A DNA stretch of 25,948 bases from a virus. How positions within the stretch are numbered: position 1 is the first letter of the stretch; the number at the start of each line of letters is the position of its first letter. The position numbers and the translations under genes are program-made. Shown piece after piece: positions 6,432 to 25,683 of this stretch. The notes under the pieces are model-generated. The model saw only the letters and a program-made list of their open reading frames with translations. It ran no database searches and was not told the DNA's origin. The stretch lies in IMG/VR virus record IMGVR_UViG_3300047566_000280, positions 1-25,948 of that record. The stretch is one strand, 5' to 3'.

Positions 6432-7210
6432 AAAGTATCCTTTGACTGACGCACAGTAGCGGAAATACCAAGGCTCTGCCTGATACGGAAAGCCATGCGT
6501 TGCATGATGTCGTTACACATAATTTCCTTGTCCTGGTCGTTGGCTCCCAAGAACGCACGTTTGGGCAAATGACCAGCTCCTCGTTGATGTCCGGACGCCC
6601 GTTGAGCTTCCTCCCCGTAGATACCTATCCTCACTTCATTGGCAGGCTCTGTCTGCGACATGGGAGCTGGCTCGAATTGACCAGCAACGAAATCCTGTAC
6701 TGTTACAATTAGGGCTTGGAGCATATGCGGGGCTTGTATGCCGCGCAAGTCCACCGTCAACCTTCCAAACGCTGCCTTAAAGGCAGCGTAACTACTGAAT
6801 TTCAGTCCCTTGGTGGTTTTCTGCACATATTGGGCATGTGACCCTTTAACCGAAACAGAGCGACTGTTTTTGCCATTCAAGCCAATTAGCTTGGAAATGC
6901 GATCAGTGGCGCGTTCTCGCCCTTTAACGGATTGCTGTTCTTTTGTCTTTGACCCAGAGGACGACTTATTGTTTGACTGTGCGCCAGGGTAATAATACAC
7001 TGGACTTTTGGTGGAATATGCCTGAAAAGGCGTCTCGTTCACATCCGTTCCCTTTGACGTGCGCGATAGTATCCGGCTGCGCTGACGCTGTCCGGCGTAC
7101 AACAGATCACCAACCGTAGGCAAGGCGTGCTTCTCCGCTTGGGCGAACAAGTCAACAACCTCGTCGCCCGAACGACCCCCAAAATTCAGCACTACATCAC
7201 TTTTTGCCAC
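6428..7210 (-). CDS. Virion morphogenesis protein (phage Mu gpG-like)
   Basis: This 260-aa basic protein has a C-terminal signature seen in phage virion morphogenesis proteins: NEVRIGIYGEEAQRASGHQR, then GHLPKRAFLGANDQD, matching the family pattern of an A..H..G element followed by (I/L)PxRxFLG. These proteins act at head completion or tail joining. A low-complexity Ser/Lys-rich linker occurs near residues 75-100 (SNNKSSSGSKTKEQQSVKGR). The gene follows a Mu gpF-like minor head gene, the same neighbour pair as in Mu-type phages. It starts with GTG at 7208-7210, has AAGGA upstream, and overlaps the preceding gene by 14 nt. At 260 aa it is longer than the common ~150 aa form because of the N-terminal extension. 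Confidence 0.7.
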   Translation of the reverse strand: MAKSDVVLNFGGRSGDEVVDLFAQAEKHALPTVGDLLYAGQRQRSRILSRTSKGTDVNETPFQAYSTKSPVYYYPGAQSNNKSSSGSKTKEQQSVKGRERATDRISKLIGLNGKNSRSVSVKGSHAQYVQKTTKGLKFSSYAAFKAAFGRLTVDLRGIQAPHMLQALIVTVQDFVAGQFEPAPMSQTEPANEVRIGIYGEEAQRASGHQRGAGHLPKRAFLGANDQDKEIMCNDIMQRMAFRIRQSLGISATVRQSKDTL

Positions 7211-8228
7211 GCTGATCCTTCTTGTCCTTGATTCTTTGCTGTGCTAGCTCTCGTTGTTGGCTAGAATCTAACTTCGGTGTACGCTTTATTCTATCTTGAT
7301 TTATGATGCGGCGGGATCGAGTTTCTTCCGCTATGGCTGAGCTGCGCTGGCGCTTGCTGCCACTTGAACTCTGGCGTCTCACAGGTTTGTCCCCTTGCTG
7401 TGATTTCAGATCAGTAGTGTCAATGATCCATTGATGCCGGCACCGATACCCACCTGCAGTTAACCACACATTGGGCAACTGGCCGTTATCCATGGCGTTG
7501 ATCTGTTGCCTGGTCCAGCTCTTGCCGGAATTGGATTGCCTCTGCAGCTTCGTGCAAAACGGACGGGTCAAAACGTCCAACGGACCCTCGTACACATATC
7601 GTATCTTCATCTCCGGCAAGTCATCTTCGATGATCTGATATCCCTTATCAGTGATAGCCCTGTAAAAGGAGCTCAAACCCGTATCGGCGATCGCCTGAGC
7701 CTGTGCGACCGACTTATGCAACTGCGACTGGATGGCTTCGGCAAGCTGCTTGGCGTTGACCGCCCCAATTTGTTCCAGGGATGTGCGTTTAGCGCGGGAT
7801 AGGGACTGCTCCACCACGCTATCGATCAGCGCTGCTTGTTGTATCTGTGCCGCCTTCAGCTGCAGACCCTTAGGGTCAATGGAAGGTGTGGGAAGAGGCC
7901 AGGACAGCTCCTCGTTGATCGCCTTCAGCACGTTCTCAAAAGCAACATACTGCCCGTTAAAGCTGTCCTGGTACTCCTGTATGATTTTTGGGTATCCGTT
8001 CTCCTGCAGATACTTCCAAACCATGCTGTCTAAGTTAGAGAGCACCTTCAAGTTACCTGAGGTAGCTGCGACTGTTCCAGCTACTGTAGTCCTCAAAGTA
8101 TCCGATAATTGCTGCCGAAGATATTCTCCAGCTTGAGTCAACAAGCTCTCCAAGTCTTTTTCGAGTTTTGCTGCCACCGCTTCAATATCATCGGCATGAC
8201 TAGCAATTAAAGTGGGTAAACGGCTCAC
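7197..8228 (-). CDS. Minor head protein (Mu gpF / SPP1 gp7-like)
   Basis: This 343-aa protein binds near the portal and takes part in head assembly or DNA ejection. The N-terminal two thirds are helical (residues 1-200, with runs such as LIASHADDIEAVAAKLEKDL). The C-terminal domain carries the family signature: YVYEGPLDVLTRPFCTKLQ near residues 212-230, then DNGQLPNVWLTAGGYRCRHQW near residues 246-267, i.e. RxFC...GQL...GGxxCRH. A highly basic Arg/Lys/Ser tail follows (residues 280-343) and could contact DNA. The GTG start (8226-8228) abuts the TAA of the 33-aa gene (TAAGTG) and has GGAG 7 nt upstream. In most phages this gene follows the portal directly; here about 8.7 kb intervene. Confidence 0.8.
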   Translation of the reverse strand: MSRLPTLIASHADDIEAVAAKLEKDLESLLTQAGEYLRQQLSDTLRTTVAGTVAATSGNLKVLSNLDSMVWKYLQENGYPKIIQEYQDSFNGQYVAFENVLKAINEELSWPLPTPSIDPKGLQLKAAQIQQAALIDSVVEQSLSRAKRTSLEQIGAVNAKQLAEAIQSQLHKSVAQAQAIADTGLSSFYRAITDKGYQIIEDDLPEMKIRYVYEGPLDVLTRPFCTKLQRQSNSGKSWTRQQINAMDNGQLPNVWLTAGGYRCRHQWIIDTTDLKSQQGDKPVRRQSSSGSKRQRSSAIAEETRSRRIINQDRIKRTPKLDSSQQRELAQQRIKDKKDQRGKK

Positions 8229-8330
8229 TTATAACTCCGTGTGGTCTTTGGCAGTAGACATTTGTGCGACATGCTGTAGATCAGCCAGAGCCGACCCAAA
8301 CAACGCGAGAAGAATGAGGAGTCGGAACAT
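8229..8330 (-). CDS. 33-aa peptide made mostly of a signal sequence
   Basis: This small frame lies between the 144-aa fibre-like gene and the minor head gene. It reads MFRLLILLALFGSALADLQH followed by VAQMSTAKDHTEL. The first 15-17 residues form an Arg-plus-hydrophobic Sec leader with an ALA-D cleavage site, which would leave a mature peptide of about 17 residues. Support comes from tight packing: the ATG is 6 nt after the upstream TGA, and its TAA is directly followed by the GTG of the next gene. The ribosome site is weak (GAGCG), so translation may depend on coupling. A longer overlapping frame (8225-8407) has no comparable features. It may be a membrane or periplasmic micropeptide, or only a coupling cistron. 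Confidence 0.5.
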   Translation of the reverse strand: MFRLLILLALFGSALADLQHVAQMSTAKDHTEL

Positions 8331-8336
8331 AAACGC

Positions 8337-8771
8337 TCAGGGTGCCCCCGCTGTTGGCGCGGAGAGTTGGCGCGTAATGGGTTTAATGGTGATGGCCAAA
8401 ATAGCATCGTCTGAGGACCAAGGCAAAATCGGACGAAGAGTAGCGAGGGTGATACTGTAGTCTACCGTTTCCGACTGAACAAGTCCATTGCGAACGTAGA
8501 CAGCGCCGGGACGGGCCGGGTAATTTCCATTGACATCAGGCTTCAGCGTCTCAACTGCAATGGTCTGATCCACAGTAGAAGCAGGGACCAAGACAATACG
8601 ACCACCGGAAATAGTGAGTCCTGCCCCAAGTTCAACTACAAAAATTTTTCCAGTAGCATCAGCAGCCAACAGGCGCGCAGTCGATGCTGGGGTCGTGCGC
8701 ACCTGATCTGTTTTGACTGTTGTCTGGCAAAATACCGACACTGACGCAAGTATCAACGAAATGAGGCGCAT
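8337..8771 (-). CDS. Secreted fibre-like protein with a C-terminal 'NG...DY' beta domain
   Basis: Starting at the ATG 8769-8771, with GGAG 8 nt upstream, this 144-aa protein begins with a short hydrophobic leader (MRLISLILASVSVFCQ). It continues with a repeat-like beta segment (ARLLAADATGKIFVVELGAG, then LTISGGRIVLVP) and ends with AVYVRNGLVQSETVDYSITL...DDAILAITI. The pattern NGL...DYsi...I...P..dDaI is common in receptor-binding and fibre-associated phage proteins. The open frame extends to an ATG at 8900, but that would add a Cys/Gly-rich stretch with no ribosome site. It belongs to the block of genes with Sec-type leaders. Confidence 0.65.
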   Translation of the reverse strand: MRLISLILASVSVFCQTTVKTDQVRTTPASTARLLAADATGKIFVVELGAGLTISGGRIVLVPASTVDQTIAVETLKPDVNGNYPARPGAVYVRNGLVQSETVDYSITLATLRPILPWSSDDAILAITIKPITRQLSAPTAGAP

Positions 8772-8974
8772 AGTGAACTCCGTGGTATCGGGTTTGGAGG
8801 AAACCGTTCTGGCCAGAGCTTCGACTCCACTGACAACCGCTCCCATGGTGTACGAGCAGCCGCCACCAAGCGTTGGCGAGCACGATCCACGCATGAGCAC
8901 TCATCCCCTCCACTCCGCAAGCCAGAACCATGGCAAGAATCACAATATGGAAAGGAGAGGCAAATTGGATGCAT
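8753..8974 (-). CDS. Possible small cysteine-rich protein (doubtful)
   Basis: The 201 nt between the 122-aa gene and the 144-aa gene carry an ATG frame that directly follows a stop (TAAATG), an arrangement used elsewhere in this operon. The 73-aa product contains CDSCHGSG and CSC, which recalls zinc-binding CxxCxGxG knuckles, then a basic region. Against it: the last 19 nt overlap the next gene, there is no clear ribosome site, and the composition is odd (many Arg, Pro, Ser). A competing frame in the same stretch (8659-8997) encodes a hydrophobic segment (FHIVILAMVLACGVEG). The region may be non-coding or the remnant of a fibre-cassette gene. Confidence 0.25.
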   Translation of the reverse strand: MHPICLSFPYCDSCHGSGLRSGGDECSCVDRARQRLVAAARTPWERLSVESKLWPERFPPNPIPRSSLCASFR

Positions 8975-9343
8975 TTATTGCTGACCCCTTGCAGCATCCA
9001 TCAGAGCCTTGCGCGCAGCGTCCAACGCAGCTTGTTTAGCGGCAATCTCCGCCACGATCGCTTTGGTGCTCGCGCTGGGGAATCGCAAAGAAATCCGTTC
9101 GGCAAAGTCGATGGCGCTCTGTTTCAGCATATCCGCCAGATGGGCATACTTCGGGTTACCGTCTCGATCTTTCTGAGTGGCTAACCATTGCTTCGCACTG
9201 TCGATTCCAGCAGCAGCGGCAGGTCCGGAGATCGTCGCCGTTTGGGTGGTTCCGTCTGCTTCGGTGACAGTGAAGGTGATGCTCTGCGCAAATAGCGACA
9301 GACACAGAAACAAGGACAATACGGACAGACGAAGGGTTCTCAT
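8975..9343 (-). CDS. Small secreted helical protein of the fibre cassette
   Basis: This 122-aa protein has a clear Sec-type leader (MRTLRLSVLSLFLCLSLFAQ) with likely cleavage near FAQ-S. A short Thr-rich beta segment follows (ITFTVTEADGTTQTATISGP), then an Ala-rich amphipathic helical region (residues 45-120: AIVAEIAAKQAALDAARKAL). The ATG at 9341-9343 has a strong AGGAG 5 nt upstream, and the preceding 783-aa gene stops 9 nt before. The organisation suggests a small helical bundle or oligomerisation element exported from the cytoplasm, possibly a partner or chaperone of the neighbouring fibre. No family is recognised. Confidence 0.65.
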   Translation of the reverse strand: MRTLRLSVLSLFLCLSLFAQSITFTVTEADGTTQTATISGPAAAAGIDSAKQWLATQKDRDGNPKYAHLADMLKQSAIDFAERISLRFPSASTKAIVAEIAAKQAALDAARKALMDAARGQQ

Positions 9344-9351
9344 AAATGCTC

Positions 9352-11703
9352 CTAATTCATAAAGTTCAACGACGCCATACGCTGTGAAGCGGTGTTTGCC
9401 GTCGCCGCGTTGGTCGAAAACGTGATAGTGGTTTGCAGGTACAGCGTCCCGGTGAGGTCGATTGCCGAAGACGCCGCAGTGTTGGTGTCATTACGTGTAG
9501 TTGTCGTGCCGCTAGCTGTGGTTGTCAGTGTGATATTCGACGAGCCGTGGGCTTCCACTGTGCCCGTCGCGCCCGTCGTGACCCCCGCCAGGTTGATGTC
9601 GAAATTCCATGGCATATTTGACGCCGCCGCCGTCGTCGCGGCGCTCGTCCAGGTGGCAAGGGTGATTACCGTACCGGAGCCGCATCCGCTGACTGTGCAA
9701 AGCTTGACCTTCAACGTAACTGTCGGCGTTTGACTGGTCTGCGTTGTATACACTCCCGCCGATCGGAACCGCGTGTGTCGATTGGCCTGATTAAGCGCTC
9801 CGGCTGGAATGGTCAGCACCATCAGATTTTGGTCACTCGTGGTGTTAGTATTGACTGTCACCGGGGTGACGCTACCCACCGCCGCTGGAACGTGCTGATG
9901 ATCGGCGCGAGCCAGACTCGTCGATGTGCCTTCGTTGTAATTCGTACCTCCAGACGATCCAGCAGTGGATACGGTGTACCCGGCTGCTGTAGTCGGCGCA
10001 GCGCCGGCACCGCCGCCCATGACGAACGTGTTTGCGGCGAGGGCGCTGGACGACGCCCACGTCGAAGAGCTCGAGAAATACGGGATGCCGCCGGATGTTC
10101 CGGAAATGGTGAATGCGGGCGTTGAGGTGCCTGTTGCGACGGATACGATGCCGCCGGTCCAGCCGACAGAGGTGACCGTACCAGTTGCGGCCGCAGTGCA
10201 AGACTCAGCGTTCCCGCTGGCGTCCACCCCAAGCGGGTACGAACCGGCCGAGCAGTTGGTGCCGTTGGCAGCCAGCGCCGTGGCTGTAGCGACGTTGCCC
10301 GCAGGAACGACATAATCAGTCCCCGCGACAGCAATGGACGGGACGCCGGTCGCCGTCGTGTTTTTCAGCAGCCCTGTTGCGAGACCGGCGAGGGATGTTC
10401 CGTTGATCTTGGACACCGTCGTCGCCACAGTTCCCACGGACGTTGTGACGTCGCCAGTGAGGGCCGGCATACGCCCGGCGGGGAGAGTTCCTGTGGACAG
10501 GTCGGCCGCGCTTCCAGAAGTGGCTACAGCAGCGAGAGTAGGCGTACCGGACACCTGAGAATACGCTACTTGGGCACACGTCAGGACGCCCGCAGCGTCT
10601 GTGTCGGTGACGTACTGGCCGGCAGAACACGCTGCCGGGTTCGCCGGCAAGTTGGCCGTAATTGTGATCGGAGCGGATCCGTCGAAGCTGACCCCGTTGA
10701 TGGCGCGAGCAGTTGCCAAAGTCGTTGCCGTCGCCGCGTTGCCGGTGAAGGCCCCAGCAGACGTGATGCCCGTAAGCGTGGATCCGCTGGAATCCTGGAA
10801 CGTGAGCAGGTTTCCCGATTGCCCAGCGCCAGCGCGAATGTATCCGTTGGTGGTGCCCGTTATCGAGACCTGATCCCACAGGCGGAAGGTTCCGGTGCTG
10901 CCGCTGCGTCGAACGTCAAGAGCGATGTTAGACTCCGCATATTCGTCACTAATAATGACATTTCCGGTGTTTTTGATGCTTACTGCTAGAGTTTCATAAC
11001 TGCTTCCAATTTTTGTGGTAGAAAAAGAAATTCGTCCTGGAATAGAGGCACTTGCTACTGTTCCGTCGACATAGGTCCCAATAGTCGCGGCAACATTCCA
11101 AATATTTGTTCCATCATCCCCCAATGACCTCAGGAGCATTATTTCATCCCCTGAAGATACAGCTCCGTTAGTATTCCCGTCTGCGGAACGAGTCTTGAGA
11201 TACTCATTCCACATGCCAGCTGATCCCCTACTTCCGGCAGCTATAAAAACCAACCCATAATCAGTGTACGAATCGTACTGAAACAGGCCCAGATTGTCAT
11301 AGGTAGGTGCTCCCCAAAATGTCTCAAATAACCCTGTTCCGGTGATATTCTTGGTCGCTTGAAACACTCCGTTTACAAATTTTGTGTTTGCAGCCTGCGT
11401 CACTACTCCAGCGGAATCCACCATCACCGCCGCACCAGAGGTGACTAGGTTCGTACCGCCGGAAACATCCCCGCCGCCACCGCCGCCACCAGTAGCGCGC
11501 AACACCCATGCAGCCGACCCACCCGATTTCTTGCAATCGTAGATGTTCGCCGTGGATCCAGAGATGTCCTGGGCAACGTGTCCATAATTGGCGGATGTGC
11601 AATCCCCCGCCGTGGGCGTGCCGCTGTAAGTCCACACGCGACCCACTGGCTGCGCCTGCCCCCACGCCGCCAGCGTGGCAACGATCAGCCACGCGGCCCG
11701 CAT
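9352..11703 (-). CDS. Large fibre or appendage protein with a Sec-type leader
   Basis: This 783-aa protein starts with MRAAWLIVATLAAWGQAQPV, a typical signal peptide, followed by a Cys-containing domain (GTPTAGDCT, IYDCKKSGGSAAWVLR) shared with the next gene upstream. A seven-glycine linker (residues 72-78) leads into Thr/Ser/Gly/Ala-rich beta-repeat sequence. Residues about 321-350 match the phage tail-fibre repeat pattern (NAATATTLATARAINGVSFD). Later segments resemble fibre modules (GTVTSVGWTGGIVSVATG; SLARADHQH with an HxH motif). The C-terminus, from about residue 610, is a Thr-rich beta domain (TLKVKLCTVSGCGSGTVITL). The ATG overlaps the previous stop as TAATG. It most likely forms a trimeric receptor-binding fibre; why a fibre has a Sec leader is unexplained. 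Confidence 0.72.
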   Translation of the reverse strand: MRAAWLIVATLAAWGQAQPVGRVWTYSGTPTAGDCTSANYGHVAQDISGSTANIYDCKKSGGSAAWVLRATGGGGGGGDVSGGTNLVTSGAAVMVDSAGVVTQAANTKFVNGVFQATKNITGTGLFETFWGAPTYDNLGLFQYDSYTDYGLVFIAAGSRGSAGMWNEYLKTRSADGNTNGAVSSGDEIMLLRSLGDDGTNIWNVAATIGTYVDGTVASASIPGRISFSTTKIGSSYETLAVSIKNTGNVIISDEYAESNIALDVRRSGSTGTFRLWDQVSITGTTNGYIRAGAGQSGNLLTFQDSSGSTLTGITSAGAFTGNAATATTLATARAINGVSFDGSAPITITANLPANPAACSAGQYVTDTDAAGVLTCAQVAYSQVSGTPTLAAVATSGSAADLSTGTLPAGRMPALTGDVTTSVGTVATTVSKINGTSLAGLATGLLKNTTATGVPSIAVAGTDYVVPAGNVATATALAANGTNCSAGSYPLGVDASGNAESCTAAATGTVTSVGWTGGIVSVATGTSTPAFTISGTSGGIPYFSSSSTWASSSALAANTFVMGGGAGAAPTTAAGYTVSTAGSSGGTNYNEGTSTSLARADHQHVPAAVGSVTPVTVNTNTTSDQNLMVLTIPAGALNQANRHTRFRSAGVYTTQTSQTPTVTLKVKLCTVSGCGSGTVITLATWTSAATTAAASNMPWNFDINLAGVTTGATGTVEAHGSSNITLTTTASGTTTTRNDTNTAASSAIDLTGTLYLQTTITFSTNAATANTASQRMASLNFMN

Positions 11704-12539
11704 TACCGCACCACCCGAACAGTAAACGTGAGAGAGGACAAATCCACCGCAGCGCCGGAGTTGTTACAGATCTGAACTTTCGCAGTATCGGCTGCAGAAA
11801 CAATAACTGCAGGGTGAATTCCAGCAGGAAGTGTTGCCGATATGCCGAGAGCTAATGGATCTCCAAAATTTACTCCGGTCAAAGTCATGGTGCTTTCTAA
11901 GCAAGCGCCATCGTTAACAGAGGCAAAATCGATGGTGCTGGCCGAAGAGATGCGAGCGGTCCACACGGCATCAGTTCCATCGCTCTGTAGGATGGCACCA
12001 GAGGTGCCCAACGCTACCGCTTCCCACGCCGATGCTCCTCGACGAATCAAACCCCCTCGAGTTGGGGAAAGAGCAGCAATAGCTGTGAGATCACTGTCCA
12101 GCGGCTGTAGAATAGAAGACAAATCAGGAATATCCGCCAAAACCAGCGATCGAAACGTCGGAGTGGCCGCCGAACCGGACGTAGGGCCGGCAAACACCAA
12201 ATTTTGCGCTCTTGTGGGCAGAGCAATGGCAAGGGTGCCGGTACTGGTGATAGGTCCGCCGCTCACAGATAGCAGGGCAGAAGGCACACTCAAATCCACG
12301 CTGGTGACAGTTCCTGCAGTGTTGTTGCGCAACACCCAAGTGGGAGTTGAGCTTACCGTGAGACAATCATAGATCACGTCCGGATCCGGCGCAGTATTGA
12401 CGCCGACCAGAACGCCAATGGTACTGGCCGTGCAATCACCAGCCGTGGGCGTGCCAGCATACGACTTCGTGCGAGTCACAGGCTGCGCTTGGCCAAAAAC
12501 CAGAGCAGCCGCAAAAATGGAAATCAAAAGTGTTTTCAT
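11703..12539 (-). CDS. Fibre-like protein with a Sec-type leader, paralogue of its neighbours
   Basis: This 278-aa protein begins MKTLLISIFAAALVFGQAQP (signal peptide). Its N-terminal domain (TRTKSYAGTPTAGDC...VIYDC...TWVLR) is clearly homologous to that of the 783-aa protein. Residues about 74-130 have the fibre-module pattern (GTVTSVDLSVPSALLSVSGG, then FRSLVLADIP). The C-terminal ~75 residues (NDGACLESTMTLTGVNFGDP...VQICNNSGAAVDLSSLTFTV) match the C-terminus of the 290-aa protein next to it. It therefore combines the head domain of one neighbour with the tail domain of the other. The ATG (12537-12539) overlaps the upstream TGA as ATGA. A virion fibre or an exported surface protein is likely. 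Confidence 0.7.
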   Translation of the reverse strand: MKTLLISIFAAALVFGQAQPVTRTKSYAGTPTAGDCTASTIGVLVGVNTAPDPDVIYDCLTVSSTPTWVLRNNTAGTVTSVDLSVPSALLSVSGGPITSTGTLAIALPTRAQNLVFAGPTSGSAATPTFRSLVLADIPDLSSILQPLDSDLTAIAALSPTRGGLIRRGASAWEAVALGTSGAILQSDGTDAVWTARISSASTIDFASVNDGACLESTMTLTGVNFGDPLALGISATLPAGIHPAVIVSAADTAKVQICNNSGAAVDLSSLTFTVRVVR

Positions 12540-13408
12540 TTAGAAACCCCAAAGTAGAAAGTGGTTGAGGGCGGGTCGTAAGACGCGCCGCTGTGGTTGC
12601 AGATTTCCAGTTTAACGGAATTTGGCCCTACAACTTTGGCGTGAACATACACAGACTCAGGCCAAACCAATAATGATCCAATTGTTGTGTTATTGCCCAA
12701 AGCCGCCCCAGGCACCGTAACTGCTGTCGAGTGCAATACACAAGATCCATCAGGTATCGCCTCTGAGTCTATCACCGCGCTGACAGACAGGGTTCCCGCT
12801 GGATCAGCCCAAATGGGCAACCCCGCTGATACCGTCAGCACTTGCGAAGCAGATCCAATTCCCAGTCGGCTCAAATTTCCCAAATTGTCCTTATACAGCA
12901 AATCTCCTGCCGTGGTGCTTGGGTCAACTAGAGCTGATAAAGTGTATGGGGTCCACGTTGAACCGCTGTACTGTAACACCTGCCCGGTAGTGGCCCCGCC
13001 AGCAGTGATCTGAGAGGGAGGGATCATAACTGTGGGTGGATCGATTGAACCCACCGTCACATCAGGTATGGTCAATGGTACACTGCTGACGGGAACTCTC
13101 CAAACTGTCACGGAGGTACTGCTTCCGGAAATAGTCAATTTAGCTTGGTACCAAGAAGCTGGGGCAGATCCGGTGTTGGGGACTACGTTCACAACTAACC
13201 AGCCATTAGCTGATATTGGATACACTTTCGTCTGCGCGGGAACGTAGGTACCGTCAACAGCCGTAAACGCTTGCACCACTTGCAGCTCTAGCGTGCCGCC
13301 TACGGCCACCTGACCGTCCGGAGCATACAGACGCTGGCGTATGGTGGTGGGAGCAGCACTGAGTGTGGCTACCAACAAAATTAGCCATAGCTGAATCGCA
13401 ACGCGCAT
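12536..13408 (-). CDS. Fibre-like protein with a Sec-type leader and Ig-like N-domain
   Basis: This 290-aa protein starts with a leader (MRVAIQLWLILLVATLSAAP). A beta-sandwich-like domain follows (residues 20-120: GTLELQVVQAFTAVDGTYVP, WLVVNVVPNTG, WYQAKLTISG, VTVWRVPVSSVPLTIPDV), then tail-fibre-type modules (GQVLQYSGSTWTPY, AGDLLYKDNLGNLSRLGIGS). The C-terminal domain (DGSCVLHSTAVTVPGAALGN...VKLEICNHSGASYDPPSTTF) is paralogous to that of the 278-aa protein. It is the first gene of the leader-bearing cassette in transcription order. Its ATG (13406-13408) overlaps the stop of the 306-aa gene as TAATG. Confidence 0.68.
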   Translation of the reverse strand: MRVAIQLWLILLVATLSAAPTTIRQRLYAPDGQVAVGGTLELQVVQAFTAVDGTYVPAQTKVYPISANGWLVVNVVPNTGSAPASWYQAKLTISGSSTSVTVWRVPVSSVPLTIPDVTVGSIDPPTVMIPPSQITAGGATTGQVLQYSGSTWTPYTLSALVDPSTTAGDLLYKDNLGNLSRLGIGSASQVLTVSAGLPIWADPAGTLSVSAVIDSEAIPDGSCVLHSTAVTVPGAALGNNTTIGSLLVWPESVYVHAKVVGPNSVKLEICNHSGASYDPPSTTFYFGVSK

Positions 13409-14328
13409 TAAGCCCTCCGGATGCGAGAAGACAGGTCCAACAGAATTTCAACGTCTTGCCCAAGACCTGGAGCAGTCCCAGATAACACCGGATCCCCCTC
13501 CAGCGTGTAGCTGTCGGTATCCAATGGAATCAAAATCGAGTTTTGTTTGTACACCAAAGCATCCGTATCCGTATTGCCAACGTACACGTTCCATCCAGCT
13601 GCGGCCTTGGGCGTGTACTGAGACAATGCGGTAGTGTACTCCGGTTGAGTGGCTGTAGGTGGAGTCAAGTTGGCGATGGATACACAGAGCACGGAGTCCT
13701 CCGCCAGGGTGGCGTTAGCTACAGTGGACGGATAGCTCTCCACTCCATCTTCCGACACCCAGGTAACGCGAACCCTTACGTCATATGTCTGCGTACCAGA
13801 TCCCGCAACAAGGCTGAGGTTGCTGTTGCCGAACGTGCCTGATCGGTAGAACTTCGCTCCAGGAGCTACCAGCGGATTCATCACAATTGGCAGACCCTGT
13901 CGGCGCAATAGCGGCCAGCTCTGGTTTCGCAGACGGAGCGCTACTGCGTCTAGTCGATCCTGATACCGATCGCCGATCTTGTTAACGCAGGCCCCGTACA
14001 CCTGCTCCAAAATCTTATCAGCAGTCCAGAGTTTCAGCAAACTCCATTCCAACTCCGAATCACCATGGGTTACGATTTGCGCCCAACCCACCCTCTGGAG
14101 GTTAAATGAAGACGTGAACGACGTGCGATTAACATTGCGGAAGCTCAAATCTGTTGGACTAAACCCAGACAAATCGAGAAAGGGGACGAGAGCGCGTTGA
14201 GCCGCCTCTCGCCCCCGTTGTATGTGGAATTCAAGGTTGATCTGCTCTGTGCTGGCGATTTCAATGAGCTCAGAATCCAATTCAATCAGATCAGAGCTTG
14301 TCACGCAGCTTTCGTCAACCCAGAGCAT
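13408..14328 (-). CDS. Neck or head-completion candidate with C-terminal fibronectin-like domain
   Basis: This 306-aa protein has no signal peptide. Its N-terminal half is helical (MLWVDESCVTSSDLIELDSE; LEWSLLKLWTADKILEQVYG; DRYQDRLDAVALRLRNQSWP). The C-terminal half is a beta sandwich with fibronectin-III-like patterning (YDVRVRVTWVSEDGVESYPS; AGWNVYVGNTDTDAL; GDPVLSGTAPGLGQD). Its position two genes after the capsid gene, with helical N-part and decorative C-part, fits an adaptor or head-completion protein, but no family signature is seen. It could instead be the base to which the downstream fibres attach. The ATG at 14326-14328 has AAAGG upstream and lies 7 nt after the previous stop. Confidence 0.6.
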   Translation of the reverse strand: MLWVDESCVTSSDLIELDSELIEIASTEQINLEFHIQRGREAAQRALVPFLDLSGFSPTDLSFRNVNRTSFTSSFNLQRVGWAQIVTHGDSELEWSLLKLWTADKILEQVYGACVNKIGDRYQDRLDAVALRLRNQSWPLLRRQGLPIVMNPLVAPGAKFYRSGTFGNSNLSLVAGSGTQTYDVRVRVTWVSEDGVESYPSTVANATLAEDSVLCVSIANLTPPTATQPEYTTALSQYTPKAAAGWNVYVGNTDTDALVYKQNSILIPLDTDSYTLEGDPVLSGTAPGLGQDVEILLDLSSRIRRA

Positions 14329-18385: not shown

Positions 18386-18625
18386 TTACTCCTTCGACTT
18401 GTTGTTCTCTGTGACTGCCGGAGCTTCTGGGTTTACATCTTTTTGCTTGCTGTCCGCATACGGAGATTGTCGCAAAAACGCAACTACCACCATAAGCGTG
18501 GCATAAGCTGCTCGCAATCCGACTTTGTGCCAATCAAAATGGTCCAAGTCGGACATAGCTTCCAACCCGGCAGACAAACCGGCGGCGATGGCGCCAACGA
18601 TAAAGGTCTTGACAGCAGGTGACAT
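18386..18625 (-). CDS. Holin candidate (small two-helix membrane protein)
   Basis: This 79-aa protein has two hydrophobic helices (residues about 6-24: KTFIVGAIAAGLSAGLEAM; residues about 37-51: LRAAYATLMVVVAFL). A short acidic loop with a conserved-looking DWHKV joins them, and a charged cytoplasmic-type tail follows (KQKDVNPEAPAVTENNKSKE). Small class II-like holins share this plan, with FLRQSP after the second helix. Holins form lesions that release endolysin; the Tlde1-type endolysin gene lies one gene away. The ATG (18623-18625) has only a weak ribosome site, and a TATACT box ends 9 nt upstream. Other small membrane proteins cannot be excluded. Confidence 0.62.
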   Translation of the reverse strand: MSPAVKTFIVGAIAAGLSAGLEAMSDLDHFDWHKVGLRAAYATLMVVVAFLRQSPYADSKQKDVNPEAPAVTENNKSKE

Positions 18626-20002: not shown

Positions 20003-20407
20003 CTAATACACCAGCAAACGATCGTGCGGATGATCGATCACCAATCGGCGAGCAGGATAACCAAGTACAATGCAGCCTTTCGACGCAGTACCTGGCTTAC
20101 TGATGTTATCTCCGTGTATCATGAAGTCTGAGCGGTTCAGCATGTTATTACTCACATCCGGAATCAGCTGGATAGCCCAAGGTCCCACTATCGGATGGTT
20201 GCGATACACTACTCCGAAAGTGTAACTACCGCGCGGAATAGGACCGCAATTCTTCAAACCCTCGAAACGAGAATTGTTGGTATAACCAGGTGCGCCGGAG
20301 TAACCAATTTGCACCAACTGTCCATCAAATAGGAAATTGCCTGTGGACTGTTGGTACTTGAATCGCTGAGCTGGGAGGCCGGGCAAAGGTTTGTCAGCAG
20401 TGGGCAT
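20003..20407 (-). CDS. Endolysin candidate, Tlde1 / L,D-transpeptidase-like peptidoglycan enzyme
   Basis: This 134-aa protein matches the Tlde1 (DUF2778) plan: start FKYQQSTGNFLFDGQLVQIG, then YSGAPGYTNNSRFEG, a C-GPIPRGSYTFG element (NxGPIPxGxY type), and the catalytic region FMIHGDNISKPGTASKGCIV with His98 and Cys112. Tlde1-fold enzymes cleave or exchange bonds in peptidoglycan stems. In a phage late operon near a holin candidate the likely role is host lysis. I chose the ATG at 20405-20407 (AGGA 6 nt upstream); a GTG at 20566 in frame gives 187 aa but lacks a ribosome site and overlaps the zinc-ribbon gene. The 106-nt leader 20408-20513 has only a small TCGGG/CCCGA hairpin (20454-20467). 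No signal peptide is seen, so export needs a holin. Confidence 0.75.
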   Translation of the reverse strand: MPTADKPLPGLPAQRFKYQQSTGNFLFDGQLVQIGYSGAPGYTNNSRFEGLKNCGPIPRGSYTFGVVYRNHPIVGPWAIQLIPDVSNNMLNRSDFMIHGDNISKPGTASKGCIVLGYPARRLVIDHPHDRLLVY

Positions 20408-20513
20408 GGATTCCTCGAGAGACATAAAGCGCTCTGATCTACTATAGCTAACTTCGGGACGACCCGATGTCCAGCATGTTGCGTATAACCCTCCGCTCAG
20501 GGTTTCGATGTGA

Positions 20514-20822
20514 TCAGCGACGACCTCCAACAGCATCCTGCCAGAAGGCAGTGTTACAGTTCTCACAACGAGTTAGATTAGGCGGTACCGTGCTTGGCTC
20601 AAAACAAGCGCTGCTGGTTGTACCATCTTTGTTCATGAGCAGAATATCACCGCACATCGGTTGCGGCTGCCAGACAAAAGGTTTTGCCATAGTTCCGCAC
20701 ACCGGGCACTCGTTATTGGGAACCTTGCACCGGGTTGGAAGCCGAGAGACACAATTGCTGTATGAGGGAGCATGCTGCTGGCCAAGACCGAATAGCGACG
20801 ACAGCCAACCCCTTCGGTTCAC
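20514..20822 (-). CDS. Small zinc-ribbon protein
   Basis: This 102-aa protein has CPVC (Cys39, Cys42) and CENC (Cys86, Cys89) near its two ends, the spacing of a zinc ribbon with a long insert; extra cysteines are at 24, 32, 57 and 73. The segment TRCENCNTAFWQDAVGG is a typical second knuckle. The GTG start (20820-20822) has GGGGAG about 9 nt upstream. It lies between the terminase genes and could bind nucleic acid or protein during packaging, but no specific family is recognised. Confidence 0.65.
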   Translation of the reverse strand: MNRRGWLSSLFGLGQQHAPSYSNCVSRLPTRCKVPNNECPVCGTMAKPFVWQPQPMCGDILLMNKDGTTSSACFEPSTVPPNLTRCENCNTAFWQDAVGGRR

Positions 20823-20879: not shown

Positions 20880-21758
20880 CTACTTTTTCTCCACCCCTTG
20901 CAACTCCTTCATCTTGCGCACAGCTTCCATTATGGTCTGAGCCATGCGGGTTCCCTCGCCGGGATCCTTGTCTTCCGGGTAAAGGTTCAATAACTTCGAC
21001 AGATGCTCCAAAGCTCGCAACTTATCATGCATCCTGATTGCCGTCTTCTTTACCACAGGCTTGGAACTGTCGCCGTCCTCTCCTCGACCACCCTGCACCA
21101 CGTAGGTCTCTTGAGTGATCTCCTTCAAAGCACTCATATGACCGCGATCGGCCCACTTGAAAGTCAAAGTGGCCTCAGCGCCGTCCTCTCCAATTTCTAT
21201 GAAGTCGCCCAAGTTAGTCATGGCCACGTTGGTCAGCTCTTCCACGACTTTCTGCGTGGTGATCGCGTTGCGAGCCGACACAAGATCAAGCTTGCGCTGT
21301 ATCTCACGCTGTATCTTCGGACACATGTAAGTGAGAAAGTCACTGGCTTTCGTTGGATCTTTATAACCAGCCGCCGCAGCCGCTCGAAATGAATTGCGGT
21401 ACCGCAAAAAGTATTCAACAAACAGTGTTTGCTTACGGGACAATTTGTTTTCCGCCACAAAGGAGTGGGCGGATATTTGGTCCCACTCAGAAGTGGCACG
21501 TCTGCCAGGGATAACTGTGCGTTTCCACTCTTGCTGAAACTCTAGCAGCTCTACCTGGAAAGCCTCTTCTTCCTCTGCCGTCATTGAGTAGCCTTCTTCA
21601 ATGGCCTGCTCATATTTAATCAATCTTTTCTGGATTTTGGCGTGAACTCCACTTCTTGGTTTATCGCCGCCAGATTTGGTCTTCGGTTTCTTACCGACAG
21701 AGCCTGTGTTCGGTTTCTCGCCGACTGCATCGTCTCGACGCGTTTCTGAGGTACTCAT
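20880..21758 (-). CDS. terS: Terminase small subunit
   Basis: This 292-aa protein recognises phage DNA and delivers it to TerL. Residues about 106-158 form the terminase_2-type DNA-binding domain: LSRKQTLFVEYFLRYRNSFR, then AAAAAGYKDPTKASDFLTY and the helix KIQREIQRKLDL. A helical oligomerisation region follows, and the C-terminal part (MHDKLRALEHLSKLLNLYPE) matches the usual TerS helix that binds the large subunit. An unusual Lys/Gly-rich N-terminal extension of about 100 residues precedes the helix-turn-helix. It is the first gene of the leftward operon. The ATG has a GGGGG only 2 nt upstream and a TATACT box 7 nt upstream, so it may be leaderless or start further in. Confidence 0.82.
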   Translation of the reverse strand: MSTSETRRDDAVGEKPNTGSVGKKPKTKSGGDKPRSGVHAKIQKRLIKYEQAIEEGYSMTAEEEEAFQVELLEFQQEWKRTVIPGRRATSEWDQISAHSFVAENKLSRKQTLFVEYFLRYRNSFRAAAAAGYKDPTKASDFLTYMCPKIQREIQRKLDLVSARNAITTQKVVEELTNVAMTNLGDFIEIGEDGAEATLTFKWADRGHMSALKEITQETYVVQGGRGEDGDSSKPVVKKTAIRMHDKLRALEHLSKLLNLYPEDKDPGEGTRMAQTIMEAVRKMKELQGVEKK

Positions 21759-22612: not shown

Positions 22613-24187
22613 ATGCCTACTCACGAGGCCTACGTTCAGCGTTTCGCGGCCCTTTTTGCCGGATACGACAGAGCCTTCGGCCAATACCTCGTCAATGAAC
22701 AAGAACCAGAAACAGGTAAGAATGTCGGACCCAGATCAACCAAAACCGGAGCACTAACCCTCCAACACTATCGCGCTCACCTTGATAACACCGGACCTGG
22801 ATTAGGGGTTATTATGTTGAGGGAAGATAACAACGTCTTATTCGCCGCGTTAGACGTTGATAACTATCGGCTAGATTTGCCGGAGTTAGAGAAGAGAGTA
22901 ACTAAGCTCAAGTTGCCTCTCACTCTGTGCCGCACTAAGTCAGGAGGTGCGCATCTCTATTTGTTTCTGTCAGAACCCGCTTCGGCAGAAATCATTCGCA
23001 CTAAGCTGGCTGAATGGGTATCCGTACTCAATCTCAGCAACAAGACTGAGATCTTTCCCAAGCAATCGACCAGGGCAGGCGAGAGCGACATTGGTAGTTG
23101 GATCAACGTCCCATACCAGAATGAATCCGAGACCATGCGCTATGCGGTGCATCGAGGTAAAGAGCTGGAACTGCCTGAATTTTTGGACCTGGCTGAGTCG
23201 CGGCGCATCTCTCTTGCAGATCTTCTCAAAATATCCCCAATCAAGCCCACAACCAACGATCCCTCCGATCCTTTATACGAAGCGCCCCCTTGCCTCGTCA
23301 CCATCCACCAGCAGAACGGTTTTCCTTCCGGCACCCGTAACGATGGCATGTTGGCAGTGGGAACTTACCTCAAGAAACGATTTGGTGAGGAATGGGAGTC
23401 ACACTTTGCTCAATACAACGAGCTGTTCTGCAATCCGCCCTTGGAACATAAGGAACTGTACGAACTCACGCAAAGTTTACGCAAGAAAGAATACTTCTAC
23501 AGATGCAAGCAGCCGCCTATCCATAGCGTATGCCAACAACGAGCATGTGCTAAGCGGGAGTTCGGCGTGGGCGGCACAGACGAAGGTGGCCTAGTGCAGA
23601 TCGAAGCGTTAGCTGTGAACGGACTGGTGCAGTATAGCTACCCAGGCGAGACGGAAGAGTCGTTGTGGGGGCTGGAGATACGAGGCGTGCGCCTAATGGT
23701 GCCCACTGAGATATTGCTGAATCCTTCTGCGCTTGTGGTCAAAATTGTGGAAACAGGCCGGATTCTTCCCTCCGGTCTTAGCCAGGTAAGCAAACCAAAG
23801 TGGCACAAATATCTGGAACCGCTACTTCTCACTTGCGAGCGTTTGGACATGAACGTCCACACGGGCGCTCCATCGCCTCTGTGGGAGTCAACCCTACAGG
23901 TGTTGAAATCGAGCAGACGTGCGCGCAGCGAGGAACACTATTTGGAGGACATTGATCAGTTAGTTTGGCAGAAAGGTTCCGGCCTGTATTTCACTTTTTC
24001 CATGCTAAGACGATTTCTTGGATATCGCAGTGCTCGCAAACAGCTAAGTGAGATCACACTTACGCGGACTCTGGAGAGTTACGGAGCAATACGCAAACGC
24101 CTCAAGGACCATGCAGTCTGGTACCTCGAGAACTCAGCAGTTATTAACTATGACGCCATTAGTCTGCCGGACAAGGAGGCCTTCTAG
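22613..24187 (+). CDS. Primase-polymerase of the archaeo-eukaryotic primase superfamily
   Basis: This 524-aa protein would prime, and possibly extend, phage DNA synthesis. The catalytic domain shows motif I FAALDVDNYRLD (D81, D83), motif II TKSGGAHLYLFL (S110, H114) and motif III region TEIFPKQ followed by GSWINVPY (146-168), the pattern of AEP/PrimPol enzymes of the TOTE-like and phage types. A helical PriCT-like domain follows (GTRNDGMLAVGTYLKKRFGE, LYELTQSLRKKEYFYRC), with a cysteine cluster Cys298, Cys307, Cys312 in RCKQPPIHSVCQQRACAK, which may bind Zn or Fe-S. The C-terminal ~180 residues look like DNA-binding domains and are unassigned. No Shine-Dalgarno precedes the ATG. It overlaps the helicase start by one base (TAGTG). 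Confidence 0.82.
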   Translation: MPTHEAYVQRFAALFAGYDRAFGQYLVNEQEPETGKNVGPRSTKTGALTLQHYRAHLDNTGPGLGVIMLREDNNVLFAALDVDNYRLDLPELEKRVTKLKLPLTLCRTKSGGAHLYLFLSEPASAEIIRTKLAEWVSVLNLSNKTEIFPKQSTRAGESDIGSWINVPYQNESETMRYAVHRGKELELPEFLDLAESRRISLADLLKISPIKPTTNDPSDPLYEAPPCLVTIHQQNGFPSGTRNDGMLAVGTYLKKRFGEEWESHFAQYNELFCNPPLEHKELYELTQSLRKKEYFYRCKQPPIHSVCQQRACAKREFGVGGTDEGGLVQIEALAVNGLVQYSYPGETEESLWGLEIRGVRLMVPTEILLNPSALVVKIVETGRILPSGLSQVSKPKWHKYLEPLLLTCERLDMNVHTGAPSPLWESTLQVLKSSRRARSEEHYLEDIDQLVWQKGSGLYFTFSMLRRFLGYRSARKQLSEITLTRTLESYGAIRKRLKDHAVWYLENSAVINYDAISLPDKEAF

Positions 24188-25683
24188 TGCTTCACTTTAA
24201 CGTTCCCAGGGTTCGTGTGGTATTTGGCGCCCCAGGCACCGGCAAGACCTCGTTCATTCTCAACGAGATTCGCAAGCTGGTGGCCTCTGGAGTGCCGACC
24301 GAACATATCGCCTTCACCACATTTTCCAAGCATGCCGTGCGCGAAGCTTTGCGGCGTCTAGACCTCCCACGCTCCGCCACACCCTGGTTCCGTACACTGC
24401 ATTCTTGCGCGTTCCGATTGAGTGAGATGCGACGAGATACTATCATGACGGATCGGGAACTGCAGCGATTCAATCAGCTCACCGGATACGAAATCAACGC
24501 CAAGCGTTTGGGTTTCCGCTTCCAGGATACTGAGCGACACCACTGGAGCAATGAGGCAATGTTCCTGGCCCAATCTGCGAGGTCAATGAACTTGAGTGTG
24601 GCAGAGTATTACAGTGATGTGGCCCATCAGACCCAGCTGCAGCTGCGAGACATCGAGGCCTTTGCAGAAGAGTACCAGCGCTACAAGCGCCAGTATGGAT
24701 TAAAGGATTTCTCTGACTTGATTGATGAGTGTGACACTCCATTTCCACCAGAAGTAAGTCACATATTTGTGGACGAGGCGCAGGATCTTACTCCGCAACA
24801 ATGGGAAATGGTTCAGCGTCTCACGGTCAACGCCGAAGAAATGCTCATTGTAGGCGACGATGATCAAACCATTTACGGGTTCGCTGGAGCCTCTGCCAAG
24901 CTGTTGGTTGAATACGCTGCAGCTAATCCGTCAAAAGTGGACCGTCTGCGCGTTAGTCATCGCTTGCCCAAGGATATTCTCACCCTGAGTCAAACGATTG
25001 CGAAGCGCCTGAAACAGCGAGTACCCAAGAACATCCAGCCTCGCAGTGACAACAGCGGCGGCATTAAGCTCTTCACCAGCATAACAGATCTGGACTTCTC
25101 GCAAGGAGAGTGGTTGGTGTTGGCTCGACATCAGTACCAGCTTCGTCAGGCGGCGGAGTTTCTACACGGTCAAGGTTTCGCTTATTGGTTTCGAGGGGAA
25201 TGGAGCCACTACTGCCCGGAAATGCGAGTCATACGCGCCTGGGAGCACTATCGCGCCACCGGGGAGCAGCCTAATCATGGCGACAAGCGCATTATGACGC
25301 GCTATCACGCCAGACGCTGGCCAGTGCCCGATCGTATGCGAGAGGTGCCGTGGAGCCAGGCTTATCCAACAATACCTTTGGTGTACGGAGAATACTATCG
25401 ACGGCTCCAGTTCAATCAGGAACTGGCTCAGCCTACGGGCCGTATCCGCCTATTGACGATTCATGAAAGCAAGGGCACAGAAGCCGACAACGTTGCTTTG
25501 TTGACCAGTTACTCTGGCGCGGTAAAACGACATGCGGAAGCTGATGCCGATGAGTTTGGTCATCAAGATGAGTTGCGTATCCTATACGTGGCGCTGACAA
25601 GGGTACGAGAAAATTTGTATTTACAGACCCCTGATACTAACGACAACTACTTTTTTACTTTAATGCGAGGAGTGAGGTTATAA
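24187..25683 (+). CDS. UvrD/Rep-like superfamily 1 DNA helicase
   Basis: This 498-aa ATP-dependent 3'-5' helicase candidate likely unwinds DNA for the adjacent primase-polymerase. Motifs in order: Walker A GAPGTGKT (14-21), Ia FTTFSKHA (43-50), II VDEAQDLTPQQ (195-205), III VGDDDQTIYGF (222-232), IV SHRL (257-260), V TIHESKGTEADNV (424-436), VI YVALTRVRENL (467-477). It is shorter than UvrD (about 720 aa), so the 1B/2B subdomains are reduced. It starts with GTG overlapping the primase stop, which implies coupled translation in fixed proportion. A role in recombination or repair is also possible. Confidence 0.9.
   Translation: MLHFNVPRVRVVFGAPGTGKTSFILNEIRKLVASGVPTEHIAFTTFSKHAVREALRRLDLPRSATPWFRTLHSCAFRLSEMRRDTIMTDRELQRFNQLTGYEINAKRLGFRFQDTERHHWSNEAMFLAQSARSMNLSVAEYYSDVAHQTQLQLRDIEAFAEEYQRYKRQYGLKDFSDLIDECDTPFPPEVSHIFVDEAQDLTPQQWEMVQRLTVNAEEMLIVGDDDQTIYGFAGASAKLLVEYAAANPSKVDRLRVSHRLPKDILTLSQTIAKRLKQRVPKNIQPRSDNSGGIKLFTSITDLDFSQGEWLVLARHQYQLRQAAEFLHGQGFAYWFRGEWSHYCPEMRVIRAWEHYRATGEQPNHGDKRIMTRYHARRWPVPDRMREVPWSQAYPTIPLVYGEYYRRLQFNQELAQPTGRIRLLTIHESKGTEADNVALLTSYSGAVKRHAEADADEFGHQDELRILYVALTRVRENLYLQTPDTNDNYFFTLMRGVRL

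Follow-up and report, generated by a model that had tools for sequence, protein, structure and literature searches.

The window, meaning the whole stretch of DNA that was analysed, is a single linear IMG/VR virus record of 25,948 bases. Its minus strand carries, in order, the terminase small subunit (20880-21758), an L,D-transpeptidase-like gene (20003-20566), the terminase large subunit, portal, scaffold and major capsid protein, two small genes in neck position, the cassette described here, and then more head, tail-tube and long tail genes up to the contig end. The tail-fibre genes that usually come after the tape measure are absent from the contig. The L,D-transpeptidase-like product (Pfam Tlde1_dom, E 3e-11; phrog_24118) is encoded between both terminase genes, an unusual spot for a peptidoglycan enzyme, and in another phage a 39% identical homologue (L089:2530-2883) precedes a putative packaging gene. 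A divergent early pair at 22613-25683 encodes a primase with an AEP-TOTE domain (phrog_21866) and a UvrD-like helicase (phrog_1967).

Table 1. Cassette genes and their two flanking genes, with positions in the window; signal peptides and domains are predictions.
Feature	Length (aa)	Positions	Strand	Description
Flanking gene		13408..14328	-	Putative neck/head-completion protein, labelled from position only; stop codon overlaps the g1 start
g1	290	12536..13408	-	Signal peptide 1-18; neck/tail-fibre docking-type N-terminal domain 19-121; linker; tailspike-type C-terminal domain with Cys223/Cys270
g2	278	11703..12539	-	Signal peptide 1-18; two-Cys N-terminal domain (C36, C59); fibre module (FAGP); tailspike-type C-terminal domain with Cys213/Cys258
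g3	783	9352..11703	-	Signal peptide 1-17; two-Cys N-terminal domain as in g2; exchanged middle with tail-fibre repeats
g4	122	8975..9343	-	Signal peptide and short domain; no relative found
Extra gene	73	8753..8974	-	No signal peptide; zinc-ribbon-like cysteines; overlaps the g5 start
g5	144	8337..8771	-	Signal peptide (weak cleavage site) and fibre-like mature part; no relative found
g6	33	8229..8330	-	Signal peptide and 17 residues; tentative, supported by its tight fit between neighbours only
Flanking gene		7197..8228	-	Putative minor head protein, gpF label without confirmation; directly after the neck homologue in L007

All six open reading frames of the original prediction, which had described six consecutive phage genes with Sec-type signal peptides, were found where it had placed them. 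The leaders were borne out, while the strict succession was not, as a leaderless 73-aa gene lies between the fourth and fifth members. This additional gene has a homologue in another contig (L122:4433-4705; 47% identity, E 1e-21) at the equivalent position, where, as in the window, it comes right after a fibre gene with a leader and overlaps the start of a small ORF that also has one. Judging from this homologue in the same position, 8753-8974 is a real gene. No relatives were found for g4, g5 or g6. The downstream flanking gene had been called Mu gpF-like, a label for which no Pfam or PHROG family match was obtained.

Besides the overlap of g1 with its upstream neighbour, g1 and g2 overlap by 4 bases and g2 and g3 by 1, and the last cassette gene abuts 7197-8228. 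With its genes overlapping or nearly touching and its ends abutting the flanks, the cassette forms one operon with the flanking genes. Promoter and terminator scans gave nothing beyond shuffled sequence and thus no evidence for a separate moron unit. The GC3 of the cassette was inside or near the range of the backbone.

Leaders were called with a fixed home-made heuristic comprising a basic n-region, an uncharged hydrophobic core and small residues at -3 and -1. By this rule, Sec-type leaders were present in 6/6 cassette genes versus 1/18 other window genes (Fisher p = 5e-5). The single other positive, 18386-18625, probably encodes a membrane protein; it is a small protein with one hydrophobic N-terminal segment, located between portal and large terminase, and is possibly holin-like. 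Among 989 plus-strand genes of relatives with the same major capsid protein, 18 (1.8%) were positive at the called start, and shuffled copies of the six N-termini were positive in 1-8% of cases. Given these background rates, a run of six leaders is far beyond chance. The rule yields both false positives and false negatives (L264, L265, L271) and misses leaders without K or R. Cleavage sites, predicted originally for all six proteins, were likewise called in each by the heuristic, although that of g5 is weak (VFC↓Q). No transmembrane helix or lipobox was detected in any mature protein tested.

The genomes of two relatives were informative on the origin of the cassette. Homologues of 13408-14328 and 7197-8228 (38% and 37% identical) are direct neighbours in L007, with no cassette between them, and in L083 the homologues of both flanking genes are separated by one unrelated 122-aa ORF, again without the cassette. 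Because the flank homologues sit together without it in these two relatives, the cassette is, by gene order, an accessory insertion. In a third phage with a different backbone (L088), homologues of g1, g2 and g3 (44%, 73% and 57% identical, respectively) follow one another in the window order behind a holin-containing region, all with leaders. The two g3 proteins share conserved stretches of 86 residues at the N-terminus and 276 at the C-terminus (the latter 85% identical), and the middle is replaced; on sequence comparison, such conserved ends with a swapped middle are typical of fibre exchange.

A search of related phages for the cassette, proposed along with the original prediction, returned the g1-g3 order with leaders in L088, and at least five more phage contigs with similar runs of leader-bearing fibre genes. 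Recurrence was sampled by module and not by leader, and leaders were present on 15 of the 92 phage fibre proteins sampled through the FAGP module. L092 contains a run of five leader-bearing genes (a fibre, a Laminin_G_3/DUF2341 protein, a second fibre and two others), L194 a run of five between the capsid protein and a putative neck gene, and vir555 (L108, BK063671.1) a run of three fibre genes. Two leader clusters, one after a putative neck gene and one in the tail region, lie on a single contig (L271 and L276); the rule passes over leaders that lack K or R, so these clusters were in part assigned by eye. Two further leader-bearing genes follow a T7-like fibre gene in L145. A g1-type gene comes first in the runs of L092, L194 and L088.

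Several features of these phages were recorded separately. A 154-aa leader-bearing protein encoded between putative capsid and neck genes (L276:9109-9573, the same phage as L271) is possibly an exported head decoration protein. The phage carrying the five-gene L194 cassette also has about eight genes that by eye look glycosyltransferase- or methyltransferase-like (L275:3907-11206). The BK063671.1 record gives a Methanomicrobiales host and its three leader-bearing fibre proteins look bacterial, so this host label may be doubtful.

No DNA relative of the cassette was found among GenBank phages, and none among plasmids; protein searches matched at the module level only. In two scans of bacterial genomes no cassette-bearing prophage turned up, and the matches, in scattered taxa, were to the capsid only. 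An Acidobacteriota host, first suspected from the AQ-type leader ends, was dropped, since similar ends also occur in contigs that look unlike that group.

Cysteine content served as a second line of evidence on export. The C-terminal domain common to g1 and g2 was sampled in 80 contigs, and both of the cysteines of the window domain were present in 7/8 leader-bearing versus 0/34 leaderless representatives (Fisher p = 3e-7); the scan patterns contained one cysteine, so that sampling was biased to cysteine-bearing copies in both groups. When profile seed sequences were left out, the pair was present in 2/3 leader-bearing versus 0/34 leaderless proteins (p = 0.0045), the non-seed leader-bearing proteins numbering only three. 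Leader calls in this test were reassigned by eye after the data had been seen: those of L264 and L265 were judged false, and a missed leader in L271 was judged likely. Counting L271 as leader-bearing gave 7/9 versus 0/33 (p = 1.3e-6), and otherwise p = 3e-7. The L271 domain (L271:6007-6246), in a protein that is probably leader-bearing, has two cysteines at positions other than those of the window, suggesting an independently acquired pair.

After redundancy filtering at 60% coverage of the longer protein, even cysteine counts outnumbered odd ones by 17 to 5 in leader-bearing fibres (22 cysteine-containing clusters), compared to 11 to 17 in leaderless fibres with the same module (28 clusters; p = 0.008) and 102 to 119 in other genes of the same contigs (221; p = 0.005). 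On cysteine density alone, leader-bearing fibres could not be told from other phage genes (0.78 versus 0.77 per 100 aa). Proteins exported in Gram-negative bacteria are known to favour even numbers of cysteines (PMC7678975). Taken together, the pair and parity tests point to adaptation of the mature parts to an oxidising compartment. Export of the cassette fibres, one of the options originally raised, is well supported by these comparisons, and the exported proteins would lose their leaders and form disulfide bonds.

Structure prediction was informative on what is exported. The domain directly after the g1 leader was modelled from 9 sequences, with pLDDT 80 in the best of five models and 56-62 in the others, which places the model at moderate confidence. 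The best match of this predicted model was residues 1-96 of the A-1(L) neck fibre (8keg; Z 11.7, rmsd 2.0, 95 aligned), and further matches were the A-1(L) tail fibre (8kec, Z 11.1), a Bxb1 tail-tip chain (9d93, Z 11.0), the XM1 neck region (7kjk, Z 10.6), the Ur-lambda tail tip (9e7m, Z 10.1) and the DEV collar (Z 8.7); the top non-phage match had Z 7.9. With moderate confidence, the mature N-terminus of g1 is thus predicted to be a docking-type domain of virion neck or tail fibres. The C-terminal domain was modelled from g2 (pLDDT 89, 41 sequences). The domain of g1 and g2 resembles the C-termini of tailspikes, depolymerases and R-type pyocin fibres (6tku, 9qrm, 4ru4, 6cl5; Z 6-7.7), a middling match when the PDB is taken alone, and that of g2 also matches many predicted phage fibre proteins (E down to 7e-6). 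A pilin/CnaB-like fold matches as well (Z 6-7) and fits exported surface proteins too. The overall architecture is modular, with repeat modules and a C-terminal domain of receptor-binding or trimerisation type, partly on the basis of predicted folds. The predicted folds of the g1 N-terminal domain and the shared C-terminal domain agree with the earlier suggestion of fibres; a host-derived origin of adhesins, suggested alongside it, received no support, the modules being those of phage fibres.

The hydrophobic N-termini might instead be virion-attachment or assembly peptides on proteins that fold and assemble in the cytoplasm in the ordinary way, close to the capsid-anchoring N-terminus first proposed. 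Virion fibres of tailed phages are normally assembled in the cytoplasm, and a hydrophobic N-terminus can look like a leader. Between the window and L088, however, the leaders are 22-44% identical and the mature parts 46-76%; leaders whose sequence drifts and whose physical character stays, while the mature parts are conserved, argue against a specific docking peptide and are as expected for signal peptides. A leaderless L088 paralogue of the g1 domain starts with Met exactly where a mature protein would, and this is the point at which the docking-type domain begins in g1, right after the predicted cleavage site. As the cysteine pair and parity are in addition tied to the leader, we regard this explanation as improbable.

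Dual localisation was also considered, in which inefficient export would leave a cytoplasmic pool to join virions and a periplasmic pool with another role. Such an arrangement would reconcile a virion-docking domain with a leader, and the g5 cleavage site is indeed weak. The cysteine pairs, on the other hand, imply selection on the exported form, and no sign of inefficient export was seen, making this a very remote prospect.

The explanation we prefer, to which we assign an even chance, is a neck- or tail-fibre cassette whose proteins are exported by Sec, become oxidised in the periplasm and are added to virions at lysis. The fibre precursors would be made late, together with the head-neck genes of the late operon, and would cross the inner membrane by means of cleavable Sec signal peptides, losing the leader. 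The mature fibres would fold in the oxidising periplasm with intramolecular disulfides and, having no membrane anchor, would stay soluble until lysis. Docking at that stage is drawn from the fold and the genomic position: the g1 N-terminal docking domain could attach the fibre to the neck of completed virions, and g2 and g3 would make up other parts of that fibre.

The same export evidence, both cysteine pair and parity, is equally in keeping with proteins that have a non-virion role in the periplasm, on the cell surface or free after lysis, for example excluding superinfection, acting as receptor decoys or polysaccharide-binding adhesins, or serving as released depolymerases. Several cassette members elsewhere look lectin- or beta-helix-like (Laminin_G_3 in L092; beta-helix-like by eye, with no family hit, in L092, vir555 and L276). 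L092 encodes, besides, an ordinary leaderless tail spike, a receptor-binding protein outside its leader-bearing set. Against such a role stand the location of the cassette in the late structural operon, adjoining head-neck genes, the predicted virion-fibre docking-type domain right after the g1 leader, and the lack of a membrane anchor or lipobox in the mature proteins tested; the products are, moreover, several large modular fibres and not one small exclusion protein. We consider a non-virion role a serious possibility, if a rather doubtful one.

Under the preferred fibre explanation, some tailed phages would build virion fibres outside the cytoplasm, by periplasmic secretion, disulfide formation and docking at lysis, with a cassette that moves between unrelated phages as a general and overlooked route of decoration. 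We offer this broader proposal tentatively, at somewhat less than an even chance. If many uncultivated phages do export fibre proteins, pipelines that discard leader-bearing proteins will miss receptor-binding proteins. Exported fibres wanted for structural work or diagnostics would have to be expressed recombinantly under periplasmic, oxidising conditions. Whether fibres can join tailed virions from the periplasmic side during lysis has become a testable question.

In the accepted view, tailed phages fold and assemble their virion proteins in the cytoplasm. In a study of phage diversity-generating retroelements, the absence of signal peptides from target proteins was used as support for phage origin (PMC6199706). 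Our search of the open-access literature returned no report of Sec-exported fibres in tailed phages, and the closest known systems each share part of the features of the cassette. Superinfection-exclusion lipoproteins and membrane proteins such as T5 Llp and Cor are small and anchored. The window proteins, by their sequences, are probably exported as those are and are also phage-encoded, but differ in being large, modular and of the soluble fibre type, without lipobox or transmembrane helix. To our knowledge, PblA and PblB of streptococcal phage SM1 have no classical leader. These two proteins are phage-encoded, have a cell-surface role and are released with the aid of a holin (PMC5241397). 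The window proteins are likewise phage-encoded and may share a cell-surface role; they differ from PblA and PblB in having Sec leaders and in a host envelope that is presumed to be different. From the tailspike- and R-pyocin-type relatives the cassette is set apart by its cysteine pair, which is missing from the leaderless copies of the C-terminal domain (0/34).

The nearest parallel is the neck fibre of the Anabaena myophage A-1(L), which consists of gp82, gp81 and gp80 encoded in one operon; gp82N attaches the fibre to the neck, and the authors propose self-assembly before hooking to the neck (PMC10966104). The matched gp82 chain begins at Met1 with the docking domain, unlike window g1, and the same paper mentions neither a signal peptide nor a disulfide (PMC10966104). 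The A-1(L) neck-fibre genes are set apart from the other structural genes, unlike the cassette, and the window proteins differ from their A-1(L) counterparts in their Sec leaders and even cysteine numbers. Both systems have a three-gene fibre cassette, with a mature N-terminal domain in g1 that is predicted to have the fold of gp82 residues 1-96 (Z 11.7 for the model), and in both the distal components are putative carbohydrate-binding or tailspike-like parts.
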